From Spirochaetota bacterium (GTDB lineage Bacteria > Spirochaetota > Spirochaetia > Treponematales > UBA12059), in contig JAKLDN010000003.1 in assembly GCA_022703505.1 (NCBI GenBank), forward strand, positions 124,001 to 188,000: 64,000 bases of DNA. Direction: 5' to 3'. Position 1 is the stretch's first letter; each line of letters begins with the position of its first letter. Shown here piece by piece: positions 14,261 through 38,141 of this stretch. The notes below the pieces were generated by a model, which did not search any database, had not been told where the DNA came from, and saw nothing but the letters and a program-made list of their open reading frames with translations. Both the position numbers and the translations under genes were made by a program.

Positions 14261-15873
14261 AGCCGGCTTTCCTTCTTCCGAGGTCGGTGGCCGCGGTCGT
14301 ACGGAGCATCTTGGTCGCCTCGGCGGTACTGTCCCTTTCCTGCGGGGGTGCCGGGAATCGGATCAGCGGCGTCGGGGAGGCGGAGGCCTCGGTCGAGAGG
14401 CCGGGCGCCGCGGATTCCTCCGGCTGGTACCCATACCCGGGCCCGGTCCGCCTGGACGAACGCTCGGACGTGGCGCTCGAAGCCGGTCCAGGATTCTCGG
14501 ATGTCCTGTCGATCGGCCCGGATCTCCTTGTCCGGGATAGTTTCGGACGACTTTCCCTGTACTCCGCGGAGCTTGGCCGCTTCCTCCCTTGGCGCGGACC
14601 GGACACCGAACGCGGGACAGCCGCGATCGTGGTCGCTATCGCGGCGGATTCCGCGAGAATCTACGTTTCCCAGGAAGACGGCTTTGTACACGCGTTTCCC
14701 GCGCCCTCGGGATCCGGTCCGGAAACCGAACCGGTCAAGCCTCTCTGGTCCGTACATCCGGGTATGGTCTCCGATTGGATCCTGGCCGTCCCCGAACGTC
14801 TCGTGTGCGCCGCTTCGGACGGAAAGATCGCCGTGCTCTCGGCTTCCGAGGGGACCGTCCAGGCCTTCCGGGATCTGGGCCTTCCCCTGGTGGGGAAGCC
14901 CGTCGCGGCGGGTTCCGTCCTGGCGGCGGCCCGGTCCGTCGGACTCGCAGCACTCGGCCTTCCGGACCTGGAATTCCTTTGGAGCGGGGACAGAGCTCCA
15001 TCGAACCTGCCGGTCCTGCGAACGGTCCGTAACCTCCTGGCGTTTCAGGATCACGAGGGGATCTTGCGGATGCTGGATGCCCGAACGGGGACAGAGCTCT
15101 ACAGCATCTCCGGCGTACAAGGATCGGCCCTCGCTTGTGACGGGGAACGTTGGTATGTCGCGGGGCCGGACGACAGCTTGGGCGCCTTCGGATTCTCGGA
15201 CGGGACGCCCGTCTGGACCGCGGGGGCCGCGGCCGAACGTGTATCTCTCGGGGCGGGGATGACTCGATATCTTCCCAGGCTCGCGGTGGATTCCGAACGT
15301 GTCTACGTGGTTCATTCCGGCGGTTTAGAATCCTGGAATTCCAGGACCGGCGAATTGATCGAACGGAGCAAGGTGCCCGGTCCCGTGGATGGGCTTTTTA
15401 TAGCCCCCGGCAGGTTGTTCTGCAGGATGCGGGATGGTACTCTCCGCGCCTACGGTCCAGAATCGACCCAAGCGGATCTTCTGGATCCCCAAGGCGCGAT
15501 TCGGCCGGACCCGGCCGTGATCCAGCGGATCCTGAGCCAGCTCGAAAGATATGCCGAACCCCAGACGGCCGTCCGTCTGGCATGGCGGGTCTACGTTCCC
15601 GAGGCCGTTCCCTCGCCGGACAATCGGTTCACCGTGTTCCGATACGAGGTCGGGGAAGCCGGAAAGAAGACCTTTTCCCTGAGGCCCGACGGGCAGGATC
15701 GGATGCTCGTGGCGGTCTTTGACGCGACGGGCGAGGAGAGGCATGCCAACGTGGGCGAGCTCGGCGTGGACGCATCCTTCGAGTACTGGACCGAGGCCGG
15801 CACCTGGTACGTCGCGGTCGGAAACTTGAGGGGCCAGGTACCCGAGGCGCCCGTTTTTCTCGACATACGGTGA
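14257..15873 (+). CDS. Lipoprotein with a PQQ-type beta-propeller
   Basis: Predicted lipoprotein of 538 residues; VASAVLSLSCGG places the acylated Cys at about residue 29. The body shows repeated blade-like units of the pyrroloquinoline-quinone/BamB type, such as ILRMLDARTGTELYSISG and DDSLGAFGFSDGTPVWTAG. The last 110 residues form a separate domain with FRYEVGEAGKKTFSL, reminiscent of pre-peptidase C-terminal beta-sandwiches. GAAGGAGAG precedes the ATG. It is the third exported protein of the operon; its role is unknown, but propellers of this kind often scaffold envelope complexes. Confidence 0.68.
   Translation: MKPAFLLPRSVAAVVRSILVASAVLSLSCGGAGNRISGVGEAEASVERPGAADSSGWYPYPGPVRLDERSDVALEAGPGFSDVLSIGPDLLVRDSFGRLSLYSAELGRFLPWRGPDTERGTAAIVVAIAADSARIYVSQEDGFVHAFPAPSGSGPETEPVKPLWSVHPGMVSDWILAVPERLVCAASDGKIAVLSASEGTVQAFRDLGLPLVGKPVAAGSVLAAARSVGLAALGLPDLEFLWSGDRAPSNLPVLRTVRNLLAFQDHEGILRMLDARTGTELYSISGVQGSALACDGERWYVAGPDDSLGAFGFSDGTPVWTAGAAAERVSLGAGMTRYLPRLAVDSERVYVVHSGGLESWNSRTGELIERSKVPGPVDGLFIAPGRLFCRMRDGTLRAYGPESTQADLLDPQGAIRPDPAVIQRILSQLERYAEPQTAVRLAWRVYVPEAVPSPDNRFTVFRYEVGEAGKKTFSLRPDGQDRMLVAVFDATGEERHANVGELGVDASFEYWTEAGTWYVAVGNLRGQVPEAPVFLDIR
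14987..14997 (+). repeat. Dispersed 11-mer
   Basis: GGGACAGAGCT in the beta-propeller lipoprotein gene, read G-D-R-A. Confidence 0.8.
15088..15098 (+). repeat. Dispersed 11-mer
   Basis: Read G-T-E-L in the propeller blade TGTELYSISG, a position that suits the blade pattern. Confidence 0.8.
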
Positions 15874-15888
15874 TTCCTCCGGATTCGG

Positions 15889-15899
15889 GGGACAGAGCT
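15889..15899 (+). repeat. Dispersed 11-mer between genes
   Basis: In the gap between the propeller lipoprotein and the rubrerythrin-like gene. Confidence 0.8.
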
Positions 15900-18608: not shown

Positions 18609-20912
18609 ATGAATCCCGATCCCGCCATCCGGGTATTCGAGAGAATTCTCGCGGATCCCGACATAGCTCCCTGCGTCGCCCGGGTCGAGAGGCTCCCCGA
18701 GGCCCCCGGTTCCTTCGCCCCCCTGCCTCCGGACCTCGACGGCCGCCTGGCGGGCGCCCTGGCTCGAAGGGGCATCGAGCGTCTGTATACGCACCAGCGC
18801 GCATCCTGGGACTTGGCGCGGGCCGGCCGGAACTTCGTCGTGGTGACCCCGACGGCCAGCGGCAAGACCCTCTGCTACAACCTCCCGGTCGTACAGGCCC
18901 TCCTGGAAGATCCCTCGGCGCGAGCCCTGTACCTGTTCCCGACCAAGGCCTTGTCCCAGGACCAGCAGGCCGAGTTGAACGAGGTAGCCCTGGGAGGCGA
19001 CCTCCCCGTCAAGATCGCCACCTACGACGGGGACACCCCCAGTTCGGTGCGGGTATCGGCACGGGATACGGGCCGCATCGTCATCACCAATCCGGACATG
19101 CTCCATTCCGGCGTCCTGCCCAACCATGCCAAGTGGTCGCGGTTCTTCTCGGGCCTGCGCTACGTGGTGGTGGACGAGATGCACGGGTATCGGGGCATCT
19201 TCGGCAGCCACGTGGCCAACGTGATCCGGAGGCTCAAACGGATCGCGGCGTTTTACGGTTCGAAACCCTCGTTCATCCTCTGCTCCGCGACCATAGGGAA
19301 CCCCGGGGCGCTCGCGGAACTTCTGGTCGAGGAGCCCGTCGAGACGGTCACCGAGAACGGCGCCCCTCGGGCGGAAAAGCTCGTGGTGTTCTACAATCCG
19401 CCTCTGGTGGATCCCGTACAGGGGATCCGGAAGAGCACGGCCACGGAATCCCAGAAGCTGGCCGTCAAGCTCCTCCGCGCCGGGGTCAAGACCATACTCT
19501 TCGCCCGGTCCCGGCTCCGGGTGGAGCTGATCGCCGGGTACATCAACCAGGAGCTCCGGAACCTCTATACCGACAATTCCGGGATCGTCGTGGAACCCTA
19601 CCGGTCGGGGCTCCTGCCCACGGAGCGCAGGGCCATTGAACGGGGGCTTCGGGACGGTACCGTGCACGGGGTGGTCTCTACGAACGCCCTGGAGCTCGGG
19701 ATCGATATAGGAGGGCTGGACGCCGCGATCATCGCGGGATTCCCCGGGAGCTTCGCCAGTTTCTGGCAGCAGTCCGGGCGGGCGGGGCGCAGGTCCGGCC
19801 TTTCCGCGGCCTTCTTCGTCGCCTCCTCCAGCCCCCTGGACCAGTACATCGTAGCCCACCCGGAATATTTCTTCGGGGCATCCCCGGAATCGGGACGCGT
19901 GGATCCCGCGAACCCCTACGTCTACATGGATCACGTGAAATGCGCCGCCTTCGAGCTTCCCTTCGGGGAGGGCGAGCCCTTCGGGCAGGACGTCGGGGAA
20001 GCCCTGGCCTACCTGGCCGAGGACGGCATCGTCCGCAAGGCCGGCGGTCGCTGGCACTGGTCCTCCTCGGGCTATCCCAGCGAAGAGATCTCCCTGCGCT
20101 CCGCGGCCTCGGACAACGTGGTGATCGTGGACGCCACGGAGGGAAGGAACCGGGTGATCGGCGAGATGGACCGGCCCAGCGCCAAGGAGCTCGTCTACGA
20201 CGACGCCGTGTACATACACCGGGGGCGCCAGTATGTCGTCCTCAAGCTGGACCTGGAGAACCGCCTGTGCAAGGTGGAGGAACGGGAGGTCAACTACTAC
20301 ACGGACGCGGTCGTCAAGACGGACATCAAGGTGCTTTCCGAGGATGCCCGGGGCGAGTCGGCCGGCCACGGATGGGTCCTGTCGGACATCCTGGTCCGGT
20401 CGGAGGCGGAGAGGTTCAAGAAACTCCGATTCCATACCCACGAAAACGTGGGATACGGGGACATACATCTCCCTCCGGAGGAGATGCAGACCAGGGGCCT
20501 CGCCGTGCTCTTTCCGCCGGAGACCTCCGCGGGGACAGAGCTTGAAAAGAGGGACATCGCCTTCCGGGCGGCCGTGCTGTCCGGCATGTCCCACCTGATC
20601 CGCAGGATCGCCCCGGCTTTCTTGATGTGCGATCCCAGGGACATCGGGGCCGCCGAGCGGGCCCGGGATGACCATTTCGGGGTTCCCGCTTTGTACCTCT
20701 ATGACCAATACCCGGGGGGGACGGGGCTCGCGGAGGCGCTCCGGGAGCTGCTCCCGAAGGTGTTCCGGGCGGCCCTGGAGACGGTCGAGCTCTGTCCCTG
20801 CGGGGGCGGCTGCCCTTCCTGCATCGGGGTGGACTTTTCGGACGGACGGACAGCCCTGGACGGACGGGAAGTCAAGACCGGGGTCGAACGGCTCCTGGCG
20901 GCGTCCGCCTAG
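18609..20912 (+). CDS. mrfA: MrfA-type DEAH helicase with DUF1998 zinc domain
   Basis: Superfamily 2 helicase of the YprA/MrfA family, which in Bacillus subtilis repairs mitomycin C damage with MrfB. The 767 residues contain Walker A TPTASGKT (80-87), DEMH (189-192), the motif III-like CSATIGNPG and the C-terminal helicase region with QSGRAGRR. The DUF1998 domain ends in a cysteine cluster C729, C731, C735 and C738 (ELCPCGGGCPSC), a probable metal site. Its third-position partner is the next gene, three bases downstream. Two dispersed 11-mers lie inside, and one encodes the first Cys of the cluster. No Shine-Dalgarno is clear at this ATG. Confidence 0.88.
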   Translation: MNPDPAIRVFERILADPDIAPCVARVERLPEAPGSFAPLPPDLDGRLAGALARRGIERLYTHQRASWDLARAGRNFVVVTPTASGKTLCYNLPVVQALLEDPSARALYLFPTKALSQDQQAELNEVALGGDLPVKIATYDGDTPSSVRVSARDTGRIVITNPDMLHSGVLPNHAKWSRFFSGLRYVVVDEMHGYRGIFGSHVANVIRRLKRIAAFYGSKPSFILCSATIGNPGALAELLVEEPVETVTENGAPRAEKLVVFYNPPLVDPVQGIRKSTATESQKLAVKLLRAGVKTILFARSRLRVELIAGYINQELRNLYTDNSGIVVEPYRSGLLPTERRAIERGLRDGTVHGVVSTNALELGIDIGGLDAAIIAGFPGSFASFWQQSGRAGRRSGLSAAFFVASSSPLDQYIVAHPEYFFGASPESGRVDPANPYVYMDHVKCAAFELPFGEGEPFGQDVGEALAYLAEDGIVRKAGGRWHWSSSGYPSEEISLRSAASDNVVIVDATEGRNRVIGEMDRPSAKELVYDDAVYIHRGRQYVVLKLDLENRLCKVEEREVNYYTDAVVKTDIKVLSEDARGESAGHGWVLSDILVRSEAERFKKLRFHTHENVGYGDIHLPPEEMQTRGLAVLFPPETSAGTELEKRDIAFRAAVLSGMSHLIRRIAPAFLMCDPRDIGAAERARDDHFGVPALYLYDQYPGGTGLAEALRELLPKVFRAALETVELCPCGGGCPSCIGVDFSDGRTALDGREVKTGVERLLAASA
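20532..20542 (+). repeat. Dispersed 11-mer in the mrfA-like gene
   Basis: Read A-G-T-E-L-E. Forms an inverted pair with the copy 256 bases on. Confidence 0.8.
20788..20798 (-). repeat. Dispersed 11-mer encoding a zinc-cluster cysteine
   Basis: Read E-L-C-P in the DUF1998 cysteine cluster of the mrfA-like gene; the Cys is the first of the cluster. Confidence 0.8.
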
Positions 20913-20915
20913 GAA

Positions 20916-22157
20916 ATGGCAGGAACCCTGAGATCCCGGCTCGCCCGGGCGCGGGAGCTCGCCCAGGCGGCCCGGGAACCTTGGGCGGACGAGAGGAAGG
21001 AGGTCTCCGGCCCGACGGGGGCGTCACTCTCCGCACAACTCTCCGGTTGGAGTCAATTTGCACCCTTCGTCCTGACCCGTACGATTCGTCGCGGCAATCC
21101 GCTCCCGGAAACCCTCGACCTTCGGCCGTATCTATCAAGGGCGGCGATACGCGTCCCGGACGATAACGAGCCGGGCCGCTTGGCGACCACTCCGGAGTCC
21201 TGCCGCATCCCGGCGGGCCGCCTGCTTTTCCTGGACCTCGAGACCACGGGCCTATCCGGAGGGGCGGGAACGATCGCCTTCCTGGCGGGGCTCGGGAGGG
21301 TCGTCCCCGGAGGAGAGGCCGAAGGCTTCGAGATCCGCCAGTACCTGCTCATCGACTACCCCGGCGAGGACGCCTTCCTGGATGCCCTATTGGGCGCACT
21401 CGTCTCGGAAACGGTGCTGGCCTCGTATAACGGTCGTTCCTTCGACGAGCCCCTTCTTCGCACCCGCTGCATCCTGAACCGCAAGCACTGGCCTCCGCAT
21501 CCCCATGCGGATTTTCTTCCGGCGGCTCGGAGACTCTGGCGGAAGCGGTTCCCGGACTGCTCCCTCGGGACCCTGGAAGCCCTGATGCTGAAGAGGCAGC
21601 GTTCCCTGGACGTTCCCGGCGCCCGCATCCCGGAAATCTGGTTTGAATACGCGAAACGGGGATCCCATCCCTTGATGGAAGCCGTTCTGGAGCACAACGC
21701 CGCCGACGTGGAGTCCCTGGCGGCGATTGCAGCGGAATGCGCCCGGACGTACGCGAATCCCGTAGATGCCCGGGATTGCGACCGAACGGCCCTGGGGACT
21801 CTCTGGCTAAAACTCCAGCCGGATACGGGCCGAGCCGTGCTCGAGCGGGCCTTCGAAGAAGGGGAAGAACGAGCGGGATGGATGTTGTTGCGACACTATC
21901 GCAGGAACGGGGTTTGGGCGGAGTACCGCCGAGTTCTTTCAGCTCTGTCCCCGGGTTGGGATTCCTGGATCGAACGAGCCAAGGATGCCGAGCACAGGCT
22001 CGGCGACCCTCGGGCCGCCCTGCAGGCCGCCCGGAGCGCCCGGGTTTTCGCCGCGGATACGGAGCTCAGGGAACACCTTGAGCTCCGTATCCGGAGACTG
22101 ACACGAAAGACGGCCGCTATACGGCAGCGGGAAGATCGTACAAGCCGCCCGCGTTGA
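20916..22157 (+). CDS. mrfB: MrfB-type RNase H-fold exonuclease
   Basis: Matches the YprB/MrfB family, a DnaQ-like exonuclease working with MrfA. The first acidic motif is FLDLETTGLSGGAG (D107, E109), followed by FLAGLG, then SYNGRSFDEPLLRTR (second acidic residue) and the EHNAADVESLAAIA segment (third motif). After about residue 285 comes a helical TPR-like tail that holds one dispersed word (S-A-L-S-P). Total 413 residues. It forms an operon with mrfA and overlaps the convergent rhodanese gene by 41 bases at the 3' end. Confidence 0.85.
   Translation: MAGTLRSRLARARELAQAAREPWADERKEVSGPTGASLSAQLSGWSQFAPFVLTRTIRRGNPLPETLDLRPYLSRAAIRVPDDNEPGRLATTPESCRIPAGRLLFLDLETTGLSGGAGTIAFLAGLGRVVPGGEAEGFEIRQYLLIDYPGEDAFLDALLGALVSETVLASYNGRSFDEPLLRTRCILNRKHWPPHPHADFLPAARRLWRKRFPDCSLGTLEALMLKRQRSLDVPGARIPEIWFEYAKRGSHPLMEAVLEHNAADVESLAAIAAECARTYANPVDARDCDRTALGTLWLKLQPDTGRAVLERAFEEGEERAGWMLLRHYRRNGVWAEYRRVLSALSPGWDSWIERAKDAEHRLGDPRAALQAARSARVFAADTELREHLELRIRRLTRKTAAIRQREDRTSRPR
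21941..21951 (-). repeat. Dispersed 11-mer in the mrfB-like gene
   Basis: Read S-A-L-S-P in the helical tail. Confidence 0.8.
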
Positions 22158-22426: not shown

Positions 22427-24100
22427 TCATTCGGCCCACCGGAGCCCCGGTTGGAGGGACAGAGCTGCCATTCCTCCGGAAATGTTCCAAACCCGCTCGA
22501 ATCCCCGCTGTCTAAGTTGCCGAAGGGCTATGTGGCTCTCGAACCCGGCCTTGGACAGCAACAGTATGTCCCGGTCCTTGGGAAGTTCATCCAGCCTGTC
22601 GCGGAGTTCGTCCACGGGAAGGTGCAGGGAAGCCTGGACGGAACCCTTCGCGTATTCCCCGTACGTACGCACATCCACCAATAAAACCTCTCCCTGGCCC
22701 AGAGCATCCGCGGCCTGCCGGGCGGACCGTGCGGGCGAGTACCCGGACAGGTCGTTCTGGGCGGCGTAGGCGGCCATGTTGATAGGGTCGTTGGCAGAGT
22801 TGTAGGGGGGGGCATAGGCAAGATCCAGTTCGGCCAAATCGTCCACGGTCAGCCCGCCCGCCAGGGCCGTCGCCAGGGCGTCGATGCGCTTGTCCGCCCC
22901 TTCCCGTCCGTAGGCCTGGCCGCCCAGAAGCCGACCGTCGGCACGGTCGAAGACTAACTTCAGGAAGAGGTCCTCGTAGCCGGGGTAGTAGGTGACGTGG
23001 TGGGCCTTGGACACCGTCGAGGTGCCGACATCAAACCCCGCGGCGGACGCTGCCTTTTCGGACAAGCCCGTCATGGCGAAGGTCTCCTCCATGGACTTGA
23101 AGACGCTGGACCCGAGGGCGCCGCGATAGGTCAGGGAACCCCCCAGGGCGTTCGTAGCGGCGATACGGCCTTGCCGGTTGGCGGGACCCGCCAGGGGGAT
23201 CCTCACGCGCCGGCCGCCGACCCGGTGGGCGATTTCAACCATATCCCCGGCGGCCCAGATGTGGGGATCGCCGGTTCGGAGCCCCTCGTCCACGGATACC
23301 CCGCCGGAGGAACCGATTTCCAGTCCCGCGGCTTTGGCCAGCTCCGTATTCGGCCGGACCCCCGCGGATACCAGGACGATTCCTGCCGGGACTTCCGATC
23401 CATCATCCAGAAGGACCGTCCTCGAGGAAACATCCACGGACCGGACGGAACGCCCCGTGAAGACCCGGGCACCCGCAGCCTCGTAGGATCTCCGGATCAA
23501 CATTCCAAACTCGGGGTCCGCCGGGGGCATCAGGGTCTCGGTCAATTCGACGATGGAAGTAGCCAGTCCGCGTTTCAAGAAGGCTTCCGCGGCTTCGAGG
23601 CCGATGAATCCTCCGCCGATGACGACTGCGCTGGAAGGCTTTTCGGTCTCTACAAACTTGTGGACCGCGTCCATGTCGGGAATCGTCCAGAGTTTGAATA
23701 CGTTCGGGGAGTCAAGCCCACGGATGGACGGGAAGACCGGCGTACCACCCTGAGCCAGGATGAGGGAGTCGTACGTAAGGTCCGACTCCCCCTCGGGGCC
23801 TCGGACTCGGACCTTCCGGGCTGCTCGATCGAGGGACAGAGCTTCCGTTTCAAGCAAGACCGTGACTCGGTATCTCGAGAAAAAGCCCTCCGGGGTCTGC
23901 AGGATGAGGGCGGAGCGTTTTGGGATGTCCCGGGAGATGAAGTAAGGGAGCCCGCAGTTCGCGAAGGAGACGTACCGTCCCTTCTCCACGATTGTAATCT
24001 CGGCGGTTTCGTCCAGCCTCCGGGCTCGGGCCGCGGCGGTTGCTCCCGCGGCCACTCCTCCGATAATCAGGATTTTTTTGCCGTTTGTGATTTGCTCCAT
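22427..24100 (-). CDS. CoA-disulfide-reductase-type flavoprotein fused to a degenerate rhodanese domain
   Basis: Pyridine nucleotide-disulfide oxidoreductase of 557 residues. FAD-binding IIGGVAAGATAAARARR is at the N-terminus, the redox Cys C49 is in SFANCGLPYF, the NAD-binding VVIGGGFIGLEAAE is at about 157, and the second FAD motif is HIWAAGDM. Residues 460-557 form a rhodanese domain, but the loop reads LLLSKAG, with Ser where the catalytic Cys should be. The family handles CoA persulfide/polysulfide or CoA disulfide. GGAGG precedes the ATG. Two dispersed words lie inside, including one at the C-terminus. Its promoter carries an operator-like spacer. Confidence 0.87.
   Translation of the reverse strand: MEQITNGKKILIIGGVAAGATAAARARRLDETAEITIVEKGRYVSFANCGLPYFISRDIPKRSALILQTPEGFFSRYRVTVLLETEALSLDRAARKVRVRGPEGESDLTYDSLILAQGGTPVFPSIRGLDSPNVFKLWTIPDMDAVHKFVETEKPSSAVVIGGGFIGLEAAEAFLKRGLATSIVELTETLMPPADPEFGMLIRRSYEAAGARVFTGRSVRSVDVSSRTVLLDDGSEVPAGIVLVSAGVRPNTELAKAAGLEIGSSGGVSVDEGLRTGDPHIWAAGDMVEIAHRVGGRRVRIPLAGPANRQGRIAATNALGGSLTYRGALGSSVFKSMEETFAMTGLSEKAASAAGFDVGTSTVSKAHHVTYYPGYEDLFLKLVFDRADGRLLGGQAYGREGADKRIDALATALAGGLTVDDLAELDLAYAPPYNSANDPINMAAYAAQNDLSGYSPARSARQAADALGQGEVLLVDVRTYGEYAKGSVQASLHLPVDELRDRLDELPKDRDILLLSKAGFESHIALRQLRQRGFERVWNISGGMAALSLQPGLRWAE
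22456..22466 (+). repeat. Dispersed 11-mer at the end of the CoA-disulfide-reductase fusion
   Basis: In the minus-strand gene it is read A-A-L-S-L-Q near the C-terminus. Confidence 0.8.
23833..23843 (+). repeat. Dispersed 11-mer in the CoA-disulfide-reductase fusion
   Basis: In the minus-strand gene it is read E-A-L-S-L-D at the start of a beta strand. Confidence 0.8.
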
Positions 24101-26014: not shown

Positions 26015-26091
26015 CGCCGAGCGTCCGAAGGGCGCGAGATGAACGGACGGCAACCATGTTTCCCGCGCGGCATAATCCGCGCACGACAATC

Positions 26092-26163
26092 GCGCCGGTC
26101 GTATAACGGCTATTACCCCAGCCTTCCAAGCTGGAGACGAGGGTTCGACTCCCTTTCGGCGCT
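26092..26163 (+). tRNA. tRNA-Gly (anticodon UCC)
   Basis: 72 bases that fold as a cloverleaf. The acceptor stem GCGCCGG pairs with TCGGCGC with one G-T pair at the inner end, the anticodon stem CCAGC/GCTGG encloses CTTCCAA with TCC at 26125-26127, and the T arm is AGGGTTCGACTCCCT. The D arm resembles that of Escherichia coli glyT. The discriminator base is T, as expected for glycine. CCA is not encoded. A strong terminator follows at once. Confidence 0.95.
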
Positions 26164-26289: not shown

Positions 26290-26300
26290 GGGACAGAGCT
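26290..26300 (+). repeat. Dispersed 11-mer upstream of the RAYT gene
   Basis: 45 bases before the RAYT start, next to the palindrome GAAGCTTC. No matching copy lies within 100 bases downstream of the gene. Confidence 0.85.
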
Positions 26301-26344
26301 TGATCGATGCAAGCGAAATTAAGAATCCCGGACGGATAAGAGGT

Positions 26345-26875
26345 ATGAGAAAGCCACGGTTGCTAAAGGAAAGCGCCCTCTACCATGTCTCCGCTCGGGC
26401 AAACCGCAAGGAACACATCCTGGATGAGGAAGGCATGAAAGATGTGTTCCTTCAGGTTGTCCGGCGCGCTCGGAAGAGATACTGCTTCCGAATCGAGAAT
26501 TTCTGCGTTATGGGCAATCATTACCACCTTATGATCCGTCCGGGGCCCCGGGAATCGTTGTCACGGATCATGCAGTGGATCATGAGCGTATTCGCGATGA
26601 CCTATAACCGGGCACATGGGTATTCCGGGCATGTCTGGGGCGAACGCTTTTTTTCAAAGATCATAGAGGGGTTCCGCGAGTTCTTGGAGATCTTTCGCTA
26701 TATTGATCGAAACCCGGTAAATGCGGGTCTGGTGCTCCATGACTGGGAATGGAAGCACGGCGGTCTATGGCATGATCGCCTGGGATACAGGCACGTTCTT
26801 GTCAAACCTCCCTGCGAGGCTCTGCTATGGGCGCCCCGGCATGAGCTGCTTCGGCTGCCCGATAGGAGTCCCTAG
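26345..26875 (+). CDS. REP-associated tyrosine transposase (RAYT, Y1_Tnp family)
   Basis: Single-strand DNA transposase-like protein of 176 residues related to the IS200/IS605 TnpA family but domesticated. The HUH motif H59-Y60-H61 is in VMGNHYHLMI, and the catalytic tyrosine is Y119 in FRYIDRNPVNAGLV. It begins MRKPRLLKESALYHVSARAN, typical of RAYTs. No IS200-type flanking ends are seen. RAYTs mobilise or maintain short palindromic REP sequences. One copy of the GGGACAGAGCT word lies 45 bases upstream. The frame is open further upstream, and a 29-codon extension from ATG 26258 would include that copy, but family alignment favours this start. Confidence 0.9.
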   Translation: MRKPRLLKESALYHVSARANRKEHILDEEGMKDVFLQVVRRARKRYCFRIENFCVMGNHYHLMIRPGPRESLSRIMQWIMSVFAMTYNRAHGYSGHVWGERFFSKIIEGFREFLEIFRYIDRNPVNAGLVLHDWEWKHGGLWHDRLGYRHVLVKPPCEALLWAPRHELLRLPDRSP

Positions 26876-27748: not shown

Positions 27749-29029
27749 ATGGGTACGGGAACCGTCCTGCACGTCAATGTCATCGGGTTGATGGCCGCCC
27801 TGGAAGAAAACCTCGATTCGACCCTTCGGGGACGCCCTTTCGTGGTCGCGAACAGGGCGGCGCCTCGTGCCGTGGTTCTGGACCTTTCGAGGGAAGCACA
27901 CCGAGAGGGGGTGCTGCGAGGCATGCTTCTTTCCCGGGCGGTCGCGATGCTGTCCGGTCTTATCGTGCGAGAACCCCGCACCGATATCTGTGCCCGGGCG
28001 AACGGCGAGCTCGACAGGATCTGTCGTTCCTATAGCCCCCAGGTGGAGATGGCGGGCAACGGGCACGTCTTCGCGGATCTGGCGGGAACGTCGGGGCTCA
28101 ACGGCCCCCCGGAGGACGTATCCCAGAGGATCCGGAAGGATATCTTTTCCGCAACCGGGCTCCGTCCGGTTCTTGCCCTTGCGGGATCCAAGACCGTCAG
28201 CAAGGTGGCCACGCGAGTCCTTCGTCCTGCGGGATTCATAGCTCTGTCCCCCTGGGAGGAAAACCAGCTTATGCGCCATCAACCCGTCGAGTTCCTTCCG
28301 GGCGTGGGGGCCGCCCTTTCCCGGCGCCTGGACCTCCTGGGCATTGGAGAGATCGGAGACTTGGCTGGGCTGTCGGACGCGGAAGCCCGAGCCCTGGGTC
28401 CCCGGGGACCGGAGTTGACGGCTCGGGCTCGGGGCATGGACGCCGTCCCCGTGGATCCCGAGCCTCCGGAACGCCGTACGGAGAGGGGTGCGTTCATTTT
28501 CGAGCCGGATGTCGTGGATGCTGAACTCCTGAACCCGAGGGTAGACATGCTGGCATCGGAGCTTGCGTACTCCATCCGGAGAAAGGGGATGGGAGCGCGG
28601 AACATCAGGGTAGAGGTATGGTACGCTGACGGTCTCCGAAATGCCGCTACCGCTAGATCTCCCCGCGTTCTAGTCCGGGACGACGAGGTCATCCACGGGG
28701 TCCGGGACGCGCTTCGCCGGGCGCGAACCCGCCGTGTCCGGGTCCGCCGGATATCCATCGAGTTTTCCGGATTGGGCTCCGCCGGTCCCGAGCTCGATCT
28801 GTTCGAGCCCGAGGAAACCCGCCTGGCCCGCCTGCAGCCGGCTCTGGACAGGGTGCGGACCCGATACGGTTTTTCCGCCGTATCCCCGGCGATCATCCTG
28901 GCGGCCGGCCGGACCGGCACGAACGGAGGGGCCGTCGATCGCAGTTCTGTACCGATTTCCTCACTGGTTCTCTGTCAGGGGGTCCCGGGCGAAGCCGGGG
29001 ATGATCTTCACGGTCTCGCCGTCGGTTAA
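27749..29029 (+). CDS. ImuB-like Y-family DNA polymerase lacking catalytic acids
   Basis: DinB/ImuB-family protein of 426 residues with palm, fingers, helix-hairpin-helix (FLPGVGAALSRRLDLLGIGEIGDLAGL) and little-finger regions. The active-site acids are missing: N10 replaces the first Asp (HVN for HVD), and G105-H106 replace the Asp-Glu of the second motif (GNGHVFADL for SIDEAYLDL). It should therefore be unable to polymerise, as for ImuB, which bridges DnaE2 to the sliding clamp. ELDLF at 348-352 resembles a beta-clamp-binding motif. One dispersed word encodes I-A-L-S-P. DnaE2 follows nine bases later. Confidence 0.82.
   Translation: MGTGTVLHVNVIGLMAALEENLDSTLRGRPFVVANRAAPRAVVLDLSREAHREGVLRGMLLSRAVAMLSGLIVREPRTDICARANGELDRICRSYSPQVEMAGNGHVFADLAGTSGLNGPPEDVSQRIRKDIFSATGLRPVLALAGSKTVSKVATRVLRPAGFIALSPWEENQLMRHQPVEFLPGVGAALSRRLDLLGIGEIGDLAGLSDAEARALGPRGPELTARARGMDAVPVDPEPPERRTERGAFIFEPDVVDAELLNPRVDMLASELAYSIRRKGMGARNIRVEVWYADGLRNAATARSPRVLVRDDEVIHGVRDALRRARTRRVRVRRISIEFSGLGSAGPELDLFEPEETRLARLQPALDRVRTRYGFSAVSPAIILAAGRTGTNGGAVDRSSVPISSLVLCQGVPGEAGDDLHGLAVG
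28240..28250 (-). repeat. Dispersed 11-mer in the ImuB-like gene
   Basis: Read I-A-L-S-P just before the helix-hairpin-helix. Confidence 0.8.
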
Positions 29030-29038
29030 GTACAGGCA

Positions 29039-32000
29039 ATGTTCACTCCCTTGCTGGTTTCATCCTGTTATTCCTTTCACTACGGCGTGATGTTCCCCCG
29101 GGATCTTGTGCGAGAGGCCCGTAACCTCGGGTACCGGGCTCTGGCCCTGACGGATCGGAACGGAGTATACGGGGTCCCGGCGTTCTTGGAGGCCTGCGCG
29201 GAAGGTCCTCGAGTCCAGCGAGGGACAGAGCTCGACGGCCATGCGGAGATTTCCCCGATCCTGGGGACAGAGCTTGTGGAAGGGCATGTCCGGACGCTCC
29301 TGATCGCTCGGACACGTTCCGGTTGGTCCCGGATATGCCGAATCCTCACGAACAGGGCTTCAGGTGATTTCGATCTGGCTGCGGCGATTCGAACGGAGGT
29401 TGAGCTCTGTCCCTGTATTCTAGGCAAAGGCCCTCCTCCGGATCTCCTGATAGCGACCGACGACATGAGTTTGCTCGAGGCAGCCCGAGGACGGGCTTAT
29501 GCCCTTCTTGCCCCGCCGGTCAGCCGGGCTGTCAAGGGGGCACGTCTCTCCTGGAGGTCTCTTTCCGGGACAGGCGCCCCCCTCCTTGCGACGGGAGAAG
29601 TACGGTTCCTGCGCCCGTCGGATAGGGAAGTCCAGAGGCTTCTCGTGGCGATAGGAAGCGGCAGGACAACATTCGAGGTCCAGGAAGGGGAGCTTTCGGC
29701 CCCGGGCACAATCCTCTCGTCTCCGCTCGACGCAATCCGGCCCTACCAGAGCGTGCCGGAGGCTATACGGACAAATGAAGCCGTAGTGGAGTCGATCGAG
29801 CTATGCTCGCTCTTCGACGGGTATGTCTTTCCCGAATACAAGTCCTGCGATGGGGACAGAGCTTCGGCGGTATTGCGATCCTTGGTCTATCAAGGCGCGG
29901 CGAAGCGATACGGGGATATCGACGGCATCGTCCGATCTCGGCTGGACTACGAGCTGGGGATCATCGAATCCAAGGGATTTTCCGCCTATTTCCTGATCGT
30001 GCGGGACATAGTCCGGAAGAGCTCCCGGACCTGCGGGCGCGGCAGCGCCGCCGCCAGCGTGGTTTCCTACGCTCTGGGAATCACGGATATCGATCCCCTG
30101 GCCCACGGCCTCTATTTCGAGCGCTTCCTGAACCCCGGCCGGAAAGACCCGCCGGACATCGACGTGGACTTCGCCTGGGACGAAAGGGACGCGATCCTGG
30201 AATCCGTGATCCGGGAGTACGGCGAGGACCGCGCCGCCCGGGTCTCGAACCACGTCTGTTTTCAGGCCCGTTCCGCCCTCCGGGAGACGGCACGGGCATT
30301 CGGGATGCCGGACGGCGAGATAGGAGCCGTGGAGCGGGCCCTTTACCTGGACCGGGGTCGTACCCTGGCCGAGGCGGATCCGGTCTGGAAGGAGATCCTG
30401 GAACTGGCCCCGCGGATCGCGGGCTTTCCCCGCCACCTGGGGGTTCATTCCGGCGGTCTGGTTCTGGTACCGGGCAGGCTTTCGGATCTTGTCCCCGTGG
30501 TTCCCAGCGGTTCCGGCATCCGGGTCACGGCCTGGGATAAGGAAGGCGTGGAAGCGGCCGGTTTGGTCAAGATAGACCTTCTCGGCAACCGAAGCCTGGC
30601 CGTGGTTCGGGACGCCCTGGCCAACCTGGCGGAAAACGGCACACCGATCGCCGAAGAGGACTGGAATCCTCTTTCGGACGCGGATACCATCGATCTCCTG
30701 TCCCGCGGCGACACCCTGGGGGTGTTCTACGTGGAAAGTCCGGCCATGCGGCTCCTCCAGAAGAAGACGGGCAAGGGCGATTTCGAGCACCTCGTCATCC
30801 ACTCGTCGATCATCCGACCCGCGGCCAACCGTTACATCAACGAATACATCGACCGGCTTAACGGCAAGACCTACGAGCCGCTTCATCCCTTGCTGGACGA
30901 CCAGCTTGCAGAGACCTACGGCATCCTCTGCTATCAGGAGGACGTGAGCAAGGCGGCGGTGGCCCTGGCGGGATTCACTCCGGCCGAGGCGGACGGAATC
31001 CGCAAGGTCTTGTCCAAGAAGGATGTCCGGACTCGATTAGCGGCATACCGGGCTCAGTTCATGTCCGGCTCCCGGGCCCGCGGCGTGGACGACAAGACGA
31101 TCGTCGCGGTTTGGGAGATGATCGAGTCCTTCGCGGGGTACTCGTTCGTGAAAGCCCACTCCGCGAGCTACGCGAAGCTGTCGTTCCGCTCCGCGTATCT
31201 GCGTGCTCACCACGGTGCGGAGTTCATGGCCGCCGTCCTGTCCAACAAAGGAGGCTTCTACTCGACCCTGGCCTATACCAGCGAGGCGAGGCGGATGGGG
31301 TTGCGCATTCTGGCTCCCGACGTGAACGAGAGCGAAATCCGCTGTCGGGGCCGGGACGGGACTATACGTTTCGGATTGGGAATGATCTCGAGTCTCGGCT
31401 CGGAGACGGCCGCCGGCATCGTGGCGGAACGGAAGAGCAACGGGCCGTATCGAAGCGTGGACGACCTGGGTTGCCGCGTGTCGATCGATCGCACCGAAGC
31501 CGAAGCCCTTGCAGGATCGGGAGCCTTGGACTTCCTGGACGAGGGACAGAGCTGTTCGCAGAAGCTGCTCCGTCTGCTCTCCCGGGCCGCGGCGAGAGAA
31601 GAACCTTGTTCCCGGGGGACGGAGCTCTTCGGTGAACCCACCCCGGGGACAGAGCTCAACTACCGGCGAGGGCACGTCCCAATGCCCGAGCACAAGCGGC
31701 TCGAAGCCCAGATGCGATATCTCGGAACCACCCTTGACGTCCACCCGCTTACGCTTTGCTCCCAGGCACTCAAGCGTTCCCGGACTCTTGGAAAGGATCT
31801 GCCGGATTTGGCGGGCCGACGGGTTGAACTCGCGGGCTGGCCGATAACGGCCAAGCCTGTGCTGACCTCCGCCGACGAGCCCATGGAATTCGTATCCTTC
31901 GAAGATGAGACGTCCCTGTATGAAGCCGTGCTGTTCCCGGATGCATATCTGCGCTACCGATTCCTCCTCCACGACGGCAAGCCGCTTTGGGTCCGGGGCC

Positions 32001-32101
32001 GCGTACAGGAGGACCGGGGGGCGACGGTGCTTTCCGTGGAAAGCCTCGCGGCTATGGAATGCTCTGTCCCTCGGGGGGTGGGTCGCTTCTCTGTCCCCTG
32101 A
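29039..32101 (+). CDS. dnaE2: Error-prone DNA polymerase DnaE2-like (C-family)
   Basis: C-family polymerase of 1020 residues, the DnaE2 size. An N-terminal PHP domain (SFHYGVMFPRDLVREARNL, LALTDRNGVYG) is followed by the polymerase core with CGRGSAAASVVSYALG and the catalytic PDIDVDF (372-378, acids D373, D375 and D377), the FVKAHSASYAKLSF helix, an HhH region and a C-terminal OB fold. With an ImuB-like partner it should perform translesion synthesis. Nine dispersed words lie in the gene (29222, 29264, 29403, 29853, 31543, 31616, 31646, 32061, 32087); the last two make up much of the C-terminus MECSVPRGVGRFSVP. Confidence 0.9.
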   Translation: MFTPLLVSSCYSFHYGVMFPRDLVREARNLGYRALALTDRNGVYGVPAFLEACAEGPRVQRGTELDGHAEISPILGTELVEGHVRTLLIARTRSGWSRICRILTNRASGDFDLAAAIRTEVELCPCILGKGPPPDLLIATDDMSLLEAARGRAYALLAPPVSRAVKGARLSWRSLSGTGAPLLATGEVRFLRPSDREVQRLLVAIGSGRTTFEVQEGELSAPGTILSSPLDAIRPYQSVPEAIRTNEAVVESIELCSLFDGYVFPEYKSCDGDRASAVLRSLVYQGAAKRYGDIDGIVRSRLDYELGIIESKGFSAYFLIVRDIVRKSSRTCGRGSAAASVVSYALGITDIDPLAHGLYFERFLNPGRKDPPDIDVDFAWDERDAILESVIREYGEDRAARVSNHVCFQARSALRETARAFGMPDGEIGAVERALYLDRGRTLAEADPVWKEILELAPRIAGFPRHLGVHSGGLVLVPGRLSDLVPVVPSGSGIRVTAWDKEGVEAAGLVKIDLLGNRSLAVVRDALANLAENGTPIAEEDWNPLSDADTIDLLSRGDTLGVFYVESPAMRLLQKKTGKGDFEHLVIHSSIIRPAANRYINEYIDRLNGKTYEPLHPLLDDQLAETYGILCYQEDVSKAAVALAGFTPAEADGIRKVLSKKDVRTRLAAYRAQFMSGSRARGVDDKTIVAVWEMIESFAGYSFVKAHSASYAKLSFRSAYLRAHHGAEFMAAVLSNKGGFYSTLAYTSEARRMGLRILAPDVNESEIRCRGRDGTIRFGLGMISSLGSETAAGIVAERKSNGPYRSVDDLGCRVSIDRTEAEALAGSGALDFLDEGQSCSQKLLRLLSRAAAREEPCSRGTELFGEPTPGTELNYRRGHVPMPEHKRLEAQMRYLGTTLDVHPLTLCSQALKRSRTLGKDLPDLAGRRVELAGWPITAKPVLTSADEPMEFVSFEDETSLYEAVLFPDAYLRYRFLLHDGKPLWVRGRVQEDRGATVLSVESLAAMECSVPRGVGRFSVP
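29222..29274 (+). repeat. Two dispersed 11-mers in the PHP domain of dnaE2
   Basis: Copies at 29222-29232 and 29264-29274, both read G-T-E-L. The second stands where family members have G-x-E-L; the first is in extra sequence. Confidence 0.85.
29403..29413 (-). repeat. Dispersed 11-mer in dnaE2, opposite orientation
   Basis: Read E-L-C-P; an inverted partner of the preceding pair. Confidence 0.8.
29853..29863 (+). repeat. Dispersed 11-mer in dnaE2
   Basis: Read G-D-R-A-S ahead of the polymerase core. Confidence 0.8.
31543..31553 (+). repeat. Dispersed 11-mer in dnaE2
   Basis: Read G-Q-S-C after the helix-hairpin-helix region. Confidence 0.8.
31616..31656 (+). repeat. Two dispersed 11-mers in a dnaE2 linker
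   Basis: GGGACGGAGCT at 31616-31626 (one-base variant) and an exact copy at 31646-31656, both read G-T-E-L (GTELFGEPTPGTEL), in the variable linker before the OB fold. Confidence 0.8.
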
Positions 32102-32186
32102 GCTCCCCGAAGGAGCATATCCAAGCTCTGTCCCTGGTTGTTGTAAAAAACCAGGCTCTGTCCCCAGGTTGCTCGAGCTCTGTCCC
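32061..32186 (-). repeat. Five-copy cluster at the end of dnaE2 and in the following gap
   Basis: All in one orientation: 32061 (10 of 11 bases), 32087 (9 of 11), 32124 (exact), 32154 (GGCT variant) and 32176 (exact); steps of 22-37 bases. The first two encode the DnaE2 C-terminus; the last three are intergenic. Confidence 0.85.
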
Positions 32187-34828: not shown

Positions 34829-34839
34829 AGCTCTGTCCC
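34829..34839 (-). repeat. Dispersed 11-mer between the divergent YhhN and GntR genes
   Basis: Lies 14 bases upstream of the GntR -35 element. Confidence 0.8.
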
Positions 34840-34897: not shown

Positions 34898-35671
34898 ATG
34901 CGCAAGAAGTTGAACATCGCGACCAAAAAACTGGAACGGGAGATCCTGGCAGGCACGTTCAAGCCCGGGGATCGCCTTCCCGCGGAGCGAGCTCTGTCCC
35001 TCCGGTATGGGGTGAGCCGCTCGATACTACGGGAAGGCATCCGACATCTTTCCAGCATGGGCCTTGTCCGCACGGAGGCCCAGAGCGGAACCTACGTTAC
35101 GGATTACCGGAAGGAAGCCTCCCTGGATTTCCTCCTCTACCTGTTGGACAACAACGAACCCCTGGATCCGGAGCTTTTCCGGGCGATCAACGAACTGCGG
35201 GAGATCCTGGAGTCGGGCTGCGCGTCCCGGGCGGCGGCACGCTCCGATCCGGAACGGGTGCGGGCCCTTCGCTCGGCCTTGGCGGCCCTCCGCGCCGAGG
35301 AAGGCGATCCGGAGGGATTAGCGGCGAAGGATTACGAGTTTCATGCGCTCTTCGTGGAGCAGACGGACAATCTGGCACTGCAGCTTCTGTTTCACGCTTT
35401 CCGTTCCGTCTACCTTTACTATGCCCGGTGTTTCTACGCCGAACCCGAAAGCGCCTCGGCCACCTTCTCCCAACTGGAATGCTTCCTGGACAGGGTGGAA
35501 GCCCGGGACGAATCCGGGGCCGCCGCGGCTCTGTCCCTCGCCCTGGCCTACGGACGCGATCGGGTCTATCGAGCTCTGTCCCTGGATTCGAATGCCCCCG
35601 CGATCTCCACGGCGCGATCGAACTTGAAGGAGGTTCCCCATGAAGACCACGGATTCCCCGTCCGCGATTAA
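34898..35671 (+). CDS. FadR-subfamily GntR regulator
   Basis: 257-residue regulator. The winged helix at about 5-70 has the GntR signature FKPGDRLPAERALSLRYGVSRSILREGIRHLSSMGLV, and an FCD ligand-binding domain follows with INELREILES and the conserved YEFHALFVEQ histidine region. In the HTH, A32-L33-S34-L35 is encoded by a dispersed word (34990) without any length change. Two more copies fall in the C-terminal domain. The gene overlaps the glycyl radical enzyme start by 32 bases, so it most likely controls that operon; the effector is unknown. Confidence 0.9.
   Translation: MRKKLNIATKKLEREILAGTFKPGDRLPAERALSLRYGVSRSILREGIRHLSSMGLVRTEAQSGTYVTDYRKEASLDFLLYLLDNNEPLDPELFRAINELREILESGCASRAAARSDPERVRALRSALAALRAEEGDPEGLAAKDYEFHALFVEQTDNLALQLLFHAFRSVYLYYARCFYAEPESASATFSQLECFLDRVEARDESGAAAALSLALAYGRDRVYRALSLDSNAPAISTARSNLKEVPHEDHGFPVRD
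34990..35000 (-). repeat. Dispersed 11-mer in the GntR helix-turn-helix
   Basis: Read R-A-L-S-L at residues 31-35, where GntR proteins usually have R-E-L-A-E; no gap is needed to align. Confidence 0.85.
35527..35582 (-). repeat. Two dispersed 11-mers in the GntR C-terminal domain
   Basis: GGCT variant at 35527-35537 (A-A-L-S-L) and an exact copy at 35572-35582 (R-A-L-S-L-D). Confidence 0.8.
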
Positions 35672-38141
35672 GCAGCCCGCGGGCCTTTCGCCTCGGATCC
35701 GATGGCTCCGGGACTACTACTTCCGGGGGACATCGCGGGCCTGGAACAACCAACAGATCAGTTTCACCACCGGCACAGCCTGGGACATCCAGTACAACGA
35801 GTGCAACTACCACATCGTTCCGGAGACCTACGCCTTCTTCCAGACCTTCACGAGCTCCTTCCGTCAGATCGCACGGCCCGTGGCGCTTCCCCCGGATTTC
35901 TGGAACCTCAGCCTTCCGGAGCGCCGGGCCTGGTTCAACAAGGAGGTGATGACCCGGTACTTGCCCCAGGAGATCCTTCCGAGGGACCTGATCGCCGGGG
36001 CACGCTTCAACGTACATACCTCGCTGTGCCTGACCAAGAGGGAGCATGAAGAGCGTTCCGCGGTGCTCTACGGCCCGAGCGGGCTTCGGAAGGCCGCCAT
36101 CGGGTTCCACAACCACGGCTTCGGGAACGCGGGGCCCACGGGCGGGCACCTCATCCCCGATTATGGCCGGGTCCTGGCCGGGGGATTCGAGGGAATCCTG
36201 GCGGAGCTCGAGGGGAATCTCGCAGCTCTGTCCCCCGAGGACCGTGAGGGCCCCCGGGGAGCCCAGCTCCGGGCCATGATCACCGCCTGCGGGATGCCGG
36301 TCGAGCTGGCCGGAAAGTACCGGGATGAAGCCCGGAGGCTCGCGGATGTCGAGCGGGATCCGGCTCGGGCGGCGGAGCTCCGGCGCATGGCCGCCAACCT
36401 CGAGCGGGTGCCGGCGAAGGGCGCTCGGGACTTCTGGGAGGCCGTCCAGGCCCTGTGGCTGGCCCATATGCTGGTGATGAGCGACGAGAACTATCCGGGG
36501 CCCGGCGTGTCCTTCGGCCGGCTCGACCAAATGCTTCTGCCCTACTGGGAAGCCTCGGTCCGGGAGGGCATGGACCGGGAGTTCGCCAAGGAAATCCTCA
36601 AGTGCTTCTGGATCCACGCGAACACCGCCTACGACTCCATGATCAAGGTCGGAAACCAGGGCATCACCGCAGGGTTCGGCCAACTCTTCAACCTCTCGGG
36701 CCTGGGACCGGGGGGCCGGGACATGACGAACGACCTCACCTTCCTGATCCTGGAGGTCATCGACGAAATGTCCCCGATCCTCGAACCCAAACCCAATGTC
36801 CGGCTCCATCGCGGCAGCCCCGAGGCCCTCCTGGACAAGGTCGTGGACATGATCGCCTCCAGCCAGGGCGCCCCCTTCCTCCTCAACTTCGACGAGAGGT
36901 CCATGGCGGGCATGATGCGGCAGGCCCGGATGTCCGGGGCGGAAGACCGGATCCACGAGGGGAACGTTCACGAGTACGCCTCGGTGGGCTGCCTGGAGAA
37001 CACCATGGTCGGGAACGACCGGTCCGGGACGGTGGACTGCAACCTGAACCTCCTCAAGGCCGTGGAGCTGACCCTGGGAAACGGGTATCCCCTCGTGCCG
37101 CATACGGACGCGATCACCGGTGTCACGGAACGGCCCCGTCGACAGGGCCCCTCCACCGGGGACCCCCGCCGATTCGGGGACTTCGACCGGTTCTGGGACG
37201 CCTACGCCGAGCAGACCCGGGCCCTTATCCGCGAGATAACCGGACTTTACGAGCGCGGGGAAAGCCTGCGGGCCCGGTTCCATCCCACTCCCTACCTTTC
37301 CACCCTCGTCCGGGGCTGCGCCGAAAAGGGAAAGGACGTGACCCGGGGGGGCGCGGAGCTTGGGTACGTCACCATCGAGGGGGTCACCTTCGCTACGACC
37401 GTGGACTCCCTGCTCGCGGTCAAGTACCTGGTGTACGACAACCGTTTCTGCACGATGGACGAGCTGATCCGGTCCCTCAAGGACAATTGGAAGGGGTACG
37501 AGATCCTTCAGGCCCGGGCCCGGAACAGGGCCCCGAAGTACGGACGCGACGATCCGGAGGCGGACGAGCTCGCCCGCCGGGTCATGGACCTCTGGACGGG
37601 GGAGACCTGGAAGTACCGTACCGAATCCACCGGGCGGCGGTTCCGGCCCGGGATGCTCTCCTGGAACTACTGGGTCGGGGACGGGTTCATCCTCCCGGCC
37701 TCCCCGGACGGGCGGCCCAAGGACCAGTTCCTTTCCAACGCCATCTGCCCGTCCAATGGGGCGGACATCCGGGGGCCGACGGCGAACGCCAACTCCGTCG
37801 GGACGGTCCTCGGCGGGAGGGGTGAGGGCGGAGACTGGGGCGGGTACTTCAATTCCCTGCCCAACGGGGCCAGCCATACCATCAGCTTCAACCCCTCCCT
37901 GATCAAGCGGCCCGAGAACCGGGCCAAGTTCAAGAGTTTCCTTCGGGGCTATGCCGAGAACGGGGGAACGGCCCTCCAGGTGAACATGCTGGACCCCGAG
38001 GTTCTACGGGACGCCCAACGGAATCCCTCGGAATACCGGCACCTCCTGGTGCGGGTGACCGGATACAACGCCTACTTCACCTCCATCGGCCGGGAGCTCC
38101 AGGACGAGGTGATCGCGCGGATCGCCCATGAGCAGATCTGA
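35640..38141 (+). CDS. Glycyl radical enzyme of unknown substrate
   Basis: Pyruvate-formate-lyase-superfamily enzyme of 833 residues. The thiyl-radical Cys is C451 in ASVGCLENTMVG (GCxE type) and the radical glycine is G808 in RVTGYNAYF, followed by LQDEVIARIAHE. The early part includes NHGFGNAGPTGGHLIPDY, typical of the dehydratase/lyase branch rather than PFL. Oxygen-sensitive, so it fits an anaerobe. Candidate roles include dehydratase, C-C, C-N or C-S lyase or decarboxylase; none can be chosen from the motifs. GGAGG is upstream, and the activase overlaps its end by 14 bases. A dispersed word encodes A-A-L-S-P at 36224. Confidence 0.9.
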   Translation: MKTTDSPSAIKQPAGLSPRIRWLRDYYFRGTSRAWNNQQISFTTGTAWDIQYNECNYHIVPETYAFFQTFTSSFRQIARPVALPPDFWNLSLPERRAWFNKEVMTRYLPQEILPRDLIAGARFNVHTSLCLTKREHEERSAVLYGPSGLRKAAIGFHNHGFGNAGPTGGHLIPDYGRVLAGGFEGILAELEGNLAALSPEDREGPRGAQLRAMITACGMPVELAGKYRDEARRLADVERDPARAAELRRMAANLERVPAKGARDFWEAVQALWLAHMLVMSDENYPGPGVSFGRLDQMLLPYWEASVREGMDREFAKEILKCFWIHANTAYDSMIKVGNQGITAGFGQLFNLSGLGPGGRDMTNDLTFLILEVIDEMSPILEPKPNVRLHRGSPEALLDKVVDMIASSQGAPFLLNFDERSMAGMMRQARMSGAEDRIHEGNVHEYASVGCLENTMVGNDRSGTVDCNLNLLKAVELTLGNGYPLVPHTDAITGVTERPRRQGPSTGDPRRFGDFDRFWDAYAEQTRALIREITGLYERGESLRARFHPTPYLSTLVRGCAEKGKDVTRGGAELGYVTIEGVTFATTVDSLLAVKYLVYDNRFCTMDELIRSLKDNWKGYEILQARARNRAPKYGRDDPEADELARRVMDLWTGETWKYRTESTGRRFRPGMLSWNYWVGDGFILPASPDGRPKDQFLSNAICPSNGADIRGPTANANSVGTVLGGRGEGGDWGGYFNSLPNGASHTISFNPSLIKRPENRAKFKSFLRGYAENGGTALQVNMLDPEVLRDAQRNPSEYRHLLVRVTGYNAYFTSIGRELQDEVIARIAHEQI
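36224..36234 (-). repeat. Dispersed 11-mer in the glycyl radical enzyme gene
   Basis: Read A-A-L-S-P-E in a surface helix region. Confidence 0.8.

Follow-up and report, generated by a model that had tools for sequence, protein, structure and literature searches.

The 11-mer GGGACAGAGCT is probably the word at which the RAYT encoded at positions 26345-26875, a TIRYT-like single-strand HUH transposase, recognises, cuts and joins DNA. This reading was reached by comparing sequences within the window, i.e. the whole stretch of 64,000 nucleotides analysed here, with the rest of its genome and with the genomes of relatives. Taken jointly, the swarming of words in cis around RAYT genes, the pairing of one word with each RAYT lineage, the fixed word upstream of the gene, the mobile units that end on words and the retention of words between species make it very likely that the word is the RAYT's own site.

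The gene runs from an ATG at 26345 to a stop codon at 26875 and encodes 176 amino acids. This start is preferred because the ORF opened at 26039 in the program-made list reads through a tRNA-Gly (TCC) gene at 26092-26163, which lies ~180 nt 5' of the RAYT. Numbered from this ATG, the intact HUH motif (H59-Y60-H61) and tyrosine (Y119) reported in the original prediction are both confirmed, and H59, H61, Y119 and N123 are invariant in an alignment with the rows of 46 relatives. The catalytic tyrosine stands in the context Y119-I-D-R-N-P, matching the Y---NP pattern of RAYT/TnpAREP proteins. A Pfam search of the protein gave Y1_Tnp alone (PF01797, E 5e-16, residues 11-122), with no C-terminal, DnaA-like HTH, and the score against the RAYT equivalog model NCBIfam NF047646 is 78.3 bits, where the cut-off is 80. 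The AF2 model (pLDDT 89) has E. coli TnpAREP as its best PDB match (4er8_A, E 9.8e-10, TM 0.72), followed by the TnpA proteins of ISDra2 and IS608. The contacts of E. coli TnpAREP to GTAG are given as W94, Q95, E100, H101 and R104 in PMC6006769; this W94-Q95-...-E100-H101-...-R104 series aligns to W-G-...-S-K-...-E in the window RAYT, such that the tryptophan alone is conserved. Beside the gene, at 27749-32101, a Y-family polymerase (ImuB-like) and a DnaE2-like polymerase form a cassette of the SOS-mutagenesis type.

With 34 exact copies, GGGACAGAGCT is the top over-represented 11-mer in the window, while the 10-mer GGGACAGAGC is present in 38 copies. Half of the window copies take the form GGGGACAG and the remainder AGGGACAG, and the only informative flanking position is -1, which is A or G every time. 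A literature search for the word strings returned unrelated matches only. The copy previously noticed just 5' of the RAYT is indeed present, 44 nt separating it from the ATG, and the lack of a flanking copy downstream is likewise borne out, the next word being at 28240 on the minus strand. As this downstream partner word is missing, the window RAYT is not an intact unit. The gene and the words of the window are as follows.

6075..6085, minus strand, word GGGACAGAGCT
12548..12558, minus strand, word GGGACAGAGCT
13231..13241, minus strand, word GGGACAGAGCT
13880..13890, minus strand, word GGGACAGAGCT
13963..13973, minus strand, word GGGACAGAGCT
14135..14144, minus strand, 10-mer variant GGGACAGAGC(C)
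14987..14997, plus strand, word GGGACAGAGCT
15088..15098, plus strand, word GGGACAGAGCT
15889..15899, plus strand, word GGGACAGAGCT
20532..20542, plus strand, word GGGACAGAGCT
20788..20798, minus strand, word GGGACAGAGCT
21941..21951, minus strand, word GGGACAGAGCT
22456..22466, plus strand, word GGGACAGAGCT
23833..23843, plus strand, word GGGACAGAGCT
26290..26300, plus strand, upstream word GGGACAGAGCT, on the RAYT's strand, its position conserved in 27/30 comparable loci
26345..26875, plus strand, RAYT gene (TIRYT-like Y1 HUH transposase)
28240..28250, minus strand, word GGGACAGAGCT, nearest one downstream of the RAYT
29222..29232, plus strand, word GGGACAGAGCT, DnaE2-like gene
29264..29274, plus strand, word GGGACAGAGCT, DnaE2-like gene
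29403..29413, minus strand, word GGGACAGAGCT, DnaE2-like gene
29853..29863, plus strand, word GGGACAGAGCT, DnaE2-like gene
31543..31553, plus strand, word GGGACAGAGCT, DnaE2-like gene
31646..31656, plus strand, word GGGACAGAGCT, DnaE2-like gene
32061..32070, minus strand, 10-mer variant GGGACAGAGC(A)
32124..32134, minus strand, word GGGACAGAGCT
32155..32164, minus strand, 10-mer variant GGGACAGAGC(C)
32176..32186, minus strand, word GGGACAGAGCT
34829..34839, minus strand, word GGGACAGAGCT
34990..35000, minus strand, word GGGACAGAGCT
35528..35537, minus strand, 10-mer variant GGGACAGAGC(C)
35572..35582, minus strand, word GGGACAGAGCT
36224..36234, minus strand, word GGGACAGAGCT
38340..38350, minus strand, word GGGACAGAGCT
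38774..38784, plus strand, word GGGACAGAGCT
39633..39643, plus strand, word GGGACAGAGCT
39651..39661, plus strand, word GGGACAGAGCT
42243..42253, plus strand, word GGGACAGAGCT
45708..45718, plus strand, word GGGACAGAGCT
52936..52946, plus strand, word GGGACAGAGCT

The suggestion of linear in-gene words in place of intergenic hairpins holds well: of the 38 copies of the 10-mer, 33 fall inside called genes, where they occupy every frame and either strand and leave the ORFs intact, and the word has no hairpin (z 0.06), the fold energy of the word with 20 nt on either side being similar to that of random windows. A hairpin or REP identity of the words is ruled out by this lack of any fold signal. 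Of the genes in the window, that for the DnaE2-like polymerase (29039-32101) holds the most words, namely seven; these are missing from the orthologues of other genera, and some of them fall in stretches that the outgroups lack.

Across the whole genome, 98 copies of GGGACAGAGCT are found in 3.66 Mb. Chance or composition as a cause of the words can be ruled out, as the reversed word, used as a control, has 0 copies and the expectation for an 11-mer is ~2 per genome. The copies are concentrated around the five Y1_Tnp genes of this genome, namely the window RAYT and four paralogues, with 73 of the 98 lying within 20 kb of one of them, a zone that makes up 5.5% of the genome (P ~3e-70). Words cluster at all five genes, and their density decays over ~50 kb: from the shell at less than 1 kb to that at 50-75 kb, there are 10, 2.0, 6.7, 4.4, 2.6, 1.2, 0.7, 0.45 and 0.18 words per 10 kb. 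No dense cluster of words without a RAYT is present in this genome. G034, an independent genome, contains 58 words, 17 of them no more than 10 kb from a single RAYT (P 1e-25); its word clusters at 682-698, 964-976 and 3250-3255 kb have no RAYT found nearby. Two RAYT loci of G034 have ~17 kb in common at 72% identity, with GGCGGCGTG-type repeats at both.

The anticipated correlation between RAYT presence and word number among related genomes is borne out. In a survey of 59 relatives, genomes with a RAYT contain more words (Mann-Whitney p 3e-4), and at least 10 are found in 18 of the 33 with a RAYT against 2 of the 26 without; these last two are word-rich genomes in which no RAYT was detected. 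One of them, G002, belongs to the window genome's genus and contains 73 words; it is a draft assembly in which no contig was found over the RAYT position, and two of its short contigs match portions of the window swarm region. The other, G014, with 16 words, is also a draft assembly.

K-mer enrichment was scanned at 60 RAYT loci in relatives and 45 in named Spirochaetes assemblies. Most loci have a single dominant word, of the shape G[GT][GA]NCA, and some have no clear word. The dominant words include GGGACAGAGC(T), GGGACAGACC, GGGACACTC, GTGCCAGGTTT (56 copies in 20 kb), GTACCAGGTGT and GTGTCWGACAC, with GGGACAGAGG, GGGACAGTCC, GTGACAGTC, GGGACAACC and GACAGACAC at further loci. In a tree of 63 RAYT cores the words group by RAYT clade, and differing words can coexist in one genome: four of the five RAYTs of G009 have four distinct words, with almost no cross-occurrence, and G010 and G015 each carry both GAGC-word and GACC-word RAYT loci. 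The word just upstream of the gene is also a regular feature, a same-strand copy being found 200-340 nt 5' of the HxH codon in 27 of 30 comparable GAGC loci, where 1.1 would be expected (P 5e-28); the window copy at 26290-26300 is among the 27.

In several relatives the word marks the limits of a mobile unit. Treponema Po218_bin51 (G059) has nine matches to the RAYT unit, and its RAYT copies resemble one another at 84-91% over the span between words and are unrelated outside it. All 22 testable homology boundaries in this genome lie 0-12 nt from a word, 21 of them within 7 nt, which places the end of the unit at the word. A search for an empty site corresponding to a mobile Treponema copy found none, there being no relative close enough. 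The RAYT copies of G042 similarly span GTGTCTGACACC to GTGTCTGACACC. On a plasmid of Legionella adelaidensis, an intact RAYT unit stands beside an internally deleted copy with both ends preserved, and the sequence shared by the pair runs from precisely GGGTCAGGCC to a point 13 nt beyond the inverted word. The deleted unit is a MITE-like derivative. Words are also found directly at the RAYTs of Acetoanaerobium, Pseudoalteromonas and Skermanella plasmids. Judging from these unit ends and positions, the word is a terminal site of this transposase type in several phyla. The earlier proposal that the 11-mer is the RAYT's recognition word is therefore supported at the level of sequence, by the clustering in cis at five RAYTs, by the locus-specific words and by the mobile copies that end on words.

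Single words are also retained through evolution. When syntenic regions of close relatives were aligned, the species had 30 of 45 well-aligned word sites in common, compared with an expectation of 12% for 10-mers in a context of equal conservation (P 9e-18), indicating that the words are maintained. Such retention, far above neutral, is what would be predicted if the RAYT had been domesticated and the words were its cluster of binding sites, kept by host selection for a role in local gene regulation, chromosome folding or fork protection. Domestication has been proposed for RAYTs (PMC8049555), and the word in the region upstream of the gene is placed like an operator. There is a real, if minor, chance that this explanation is correct; against it, close Treponema relatives are still mobile as units ending on words, and it is hard to see why a host function would cluster at each RAYT with a different word.

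The manner in which words are gained and lost is informative as to their origin. Where two species are aligned and just one of them has the word, the alignment is gapless at 39 of 40 sites, so gain or loss occurs in place, without insertion. Mismatches at such one-species sites show no excess over a matched background of ordinary point differences (P 0.14 and 0.23). Overwriting of blocks of 11 nt, hinted at by single cases, was dropped as an explanation, since the mismatch total is within this background. From these alignments, ordinary base changes followed by retention would be sufficient to account for the gain of words. It has to be considered whether the RAYT locus might instead act selfishly, converting near-matches in the genes around it into exact 11-mers, in place and with no insertion, e.g. 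through word-biased repair, such that host coding DNA is slowly edited into landing or ending sites. This is doubtful, as word gains that are the same as ordinary point differences (P 0.23) leave active writing unsupported.

The idea that the RAYT is the source of the repeats by way of inserted copies is not supported, because new words arise without insertion. Under this explanation each word would be a classical mini-transposon, comparable to a REP or MITE reduced to 11 nt, which would fit with words marking the ends of mobile units, with some words of the DnaE2-like gene lying in stretches missing from outgroups and with the orientation of close pairs: 105 of 110 pairs less than 100 nt apart are direct repeats, while orientation is random at greater distance. 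It is nevertheless unlikely, as gains in place argue that the words are not ordinary mini-transposons; the resemblance of the mismatches to ordinary point differences in the better controlled set, and the presence of most window words in genes in every frame and on both strands with the ORFs intact, also count against it. Tandem word-spacer arrays are present in G010 and G002, and together with the direct close pairs they point to slippage or word-to-word joining.

The direction of causation could also be reversed, with RAYT units landing in pre-existing clusters of words that attract them. Mobile copies do sit between words, some of them beside extra flanking words, and G034 has the word clusters without a detected RAYT described above. 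However, the window genome itself has no dense RAYT-free cluster, the word type tracks the RAYT lineage, and the fixed upstream word is part of the unit, making this order of events very improbable. A genome-wide functional motif of the host (like uptake sequences, Chi, KOPS or parS), near which RAYTs simply happen to sit, is scarcely credible despite the strong retention of words at orthologous in-gene sites that such signals also display, because different words are found at the RAYT loci of one genome and their density declines away from RAYT genes, whereas host signals are not known to vary by locus or to decay from transposase genes.

Interpreting the word as the site of its RAYT invites comparison with several known systems. 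The Y1 fold is shared with the IS200/IS605 family, of which IS608 and ISDra2 recognise subterminal hairpins; no hairpin exists at the window word. DNA uptake sequences, Chi and KOPS are likewise short linear words kept in genes, but there is one such word per genome, not centred on any gene, as opposed to one word per transposase locus here. With RAYT/TnpAREP proteins (Nunvar 2010, PMC2817692; Bertels 2011, PMC3116915; PMC8266576) the window protein shares its fold, as seen in the top match to 4er8, and, as in RAYT/REP systems, every enzyme has its own repeat family. By contrast, the window word has no GTAG-hairpin, and of the residues contacting GTAG only the tryptophan is kept. The words also differ from REPs and REPINs, which are extragenic imperfect palindromes in inverted pairs, in being mostly within genes (33/38) and, when close, in direct orientation (105/110).

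The nearest relatives of the system are TIRYTs and TIRtrons, which according to Di Nocera et al. 2013 (PMC3733652) have terminal repeats with GGGGWSAS, some TIR families being moderate in number. The window gene also encodes a RAYT-related Y1 HUH transposase, and GGGGACAG fits GGGGWSAS as given there. As these terminal repeats were described in 2013, the end word is of a known kind. In that description the inverted repeats flank the gene on both sides, as they do in the Treponema and Legionella relatives, whereas the window gene has the upstream copy only. Further differences from the TIRYTs of that text are that the words are 10-12 nt long with no palindrome, lie mostly in genes, swarm in cis with a decay over distance and are specific to the locus; the window protein also has no Pfam-detectable C-terminal HTH. 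The window gene is therefore not assigned to TIRYT proper, as both the downstream repeat and the C-terminal HTH were sought and not found. TIRYT probably corresponds largely to subclass 2.1 of Quentin et al. 2018 (PMC6006769), in which no REP-like sequences are reported for subclasses 2.1 and 2.3. Hence the view that a RAYT with linear words would be unusual stands only in part: a RAYT lacking REP hairpins is in itself no novelty, given the terminal words of TIRYTs (PMC3733652), but an in-gene swarm in cis is not reported there. More fully, a hairpin-less, in-gene swarm in cis that decays with distance, is specific to its locus and is retained between species is not described for TIRYT or subclass 2.1 in the available text of PMC3733652 and PMC6006769.

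A mechanism can be outlined from the biochemistry of HUH enzymes (PMC8266576, PMC6006769). The RAYT would nick single-stranded DNA at the word, form a 5'-phosphotyrosine intermediate and, by strand transfer, join the word-bearing end to another word. As a tentative route for the origin of single words, those near the RAYT would be gained through small in-place changes and kept since they would be of use in cis to the RAYT locus, whether as alternative ends, as landing sites or through word-biased repair. Tandem word-spacer arrays could then expand via word-to-word joining or slippage. Why words gather by the gene is a matter of speculation, although their local distribution points to some benefit or activity in cis, such as extra ends, landing sites or biased repair, and not service to the whole cell.

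According to PMC6006769, the largest hairpin-less RAYT group has been reported without REP partners, terminal repeats alone being known, for some members. The lineage studied here is of that type, and has one specific word per enzyme, in-gene swarms in cis and evolutionary retention of the words. The natural enzyme-word pairs, several of them in one genome, could be used to test how HUH enzymes read linear single-stranded DNA, as well as the reshaping of nearby host genes and the interconversion of domesticated and mobile forms.

The densest swarm seen is that of GTGCCAGGT (consensus GGTGCCAGGTTTC), of which 56 copies surround one RAYT of G009:C82 within 20 kb. GGGACAGAGC occurs 113 times on a 110-kb contig of G010 (C1), in part as tandem arrays with periods of 13-21 nt that resemble variable-number repeats, and a second enriched string, CGAGGAACTGG, is present on this contig in 17-20 copies within 20 kb adjoining the RAYT swarm. 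On a Candidatus Chlorohelix plasmid, a ~65-copy repeat that is probably a CRISPR array lies less than 10 kb from a gene for a Y1 transposase.
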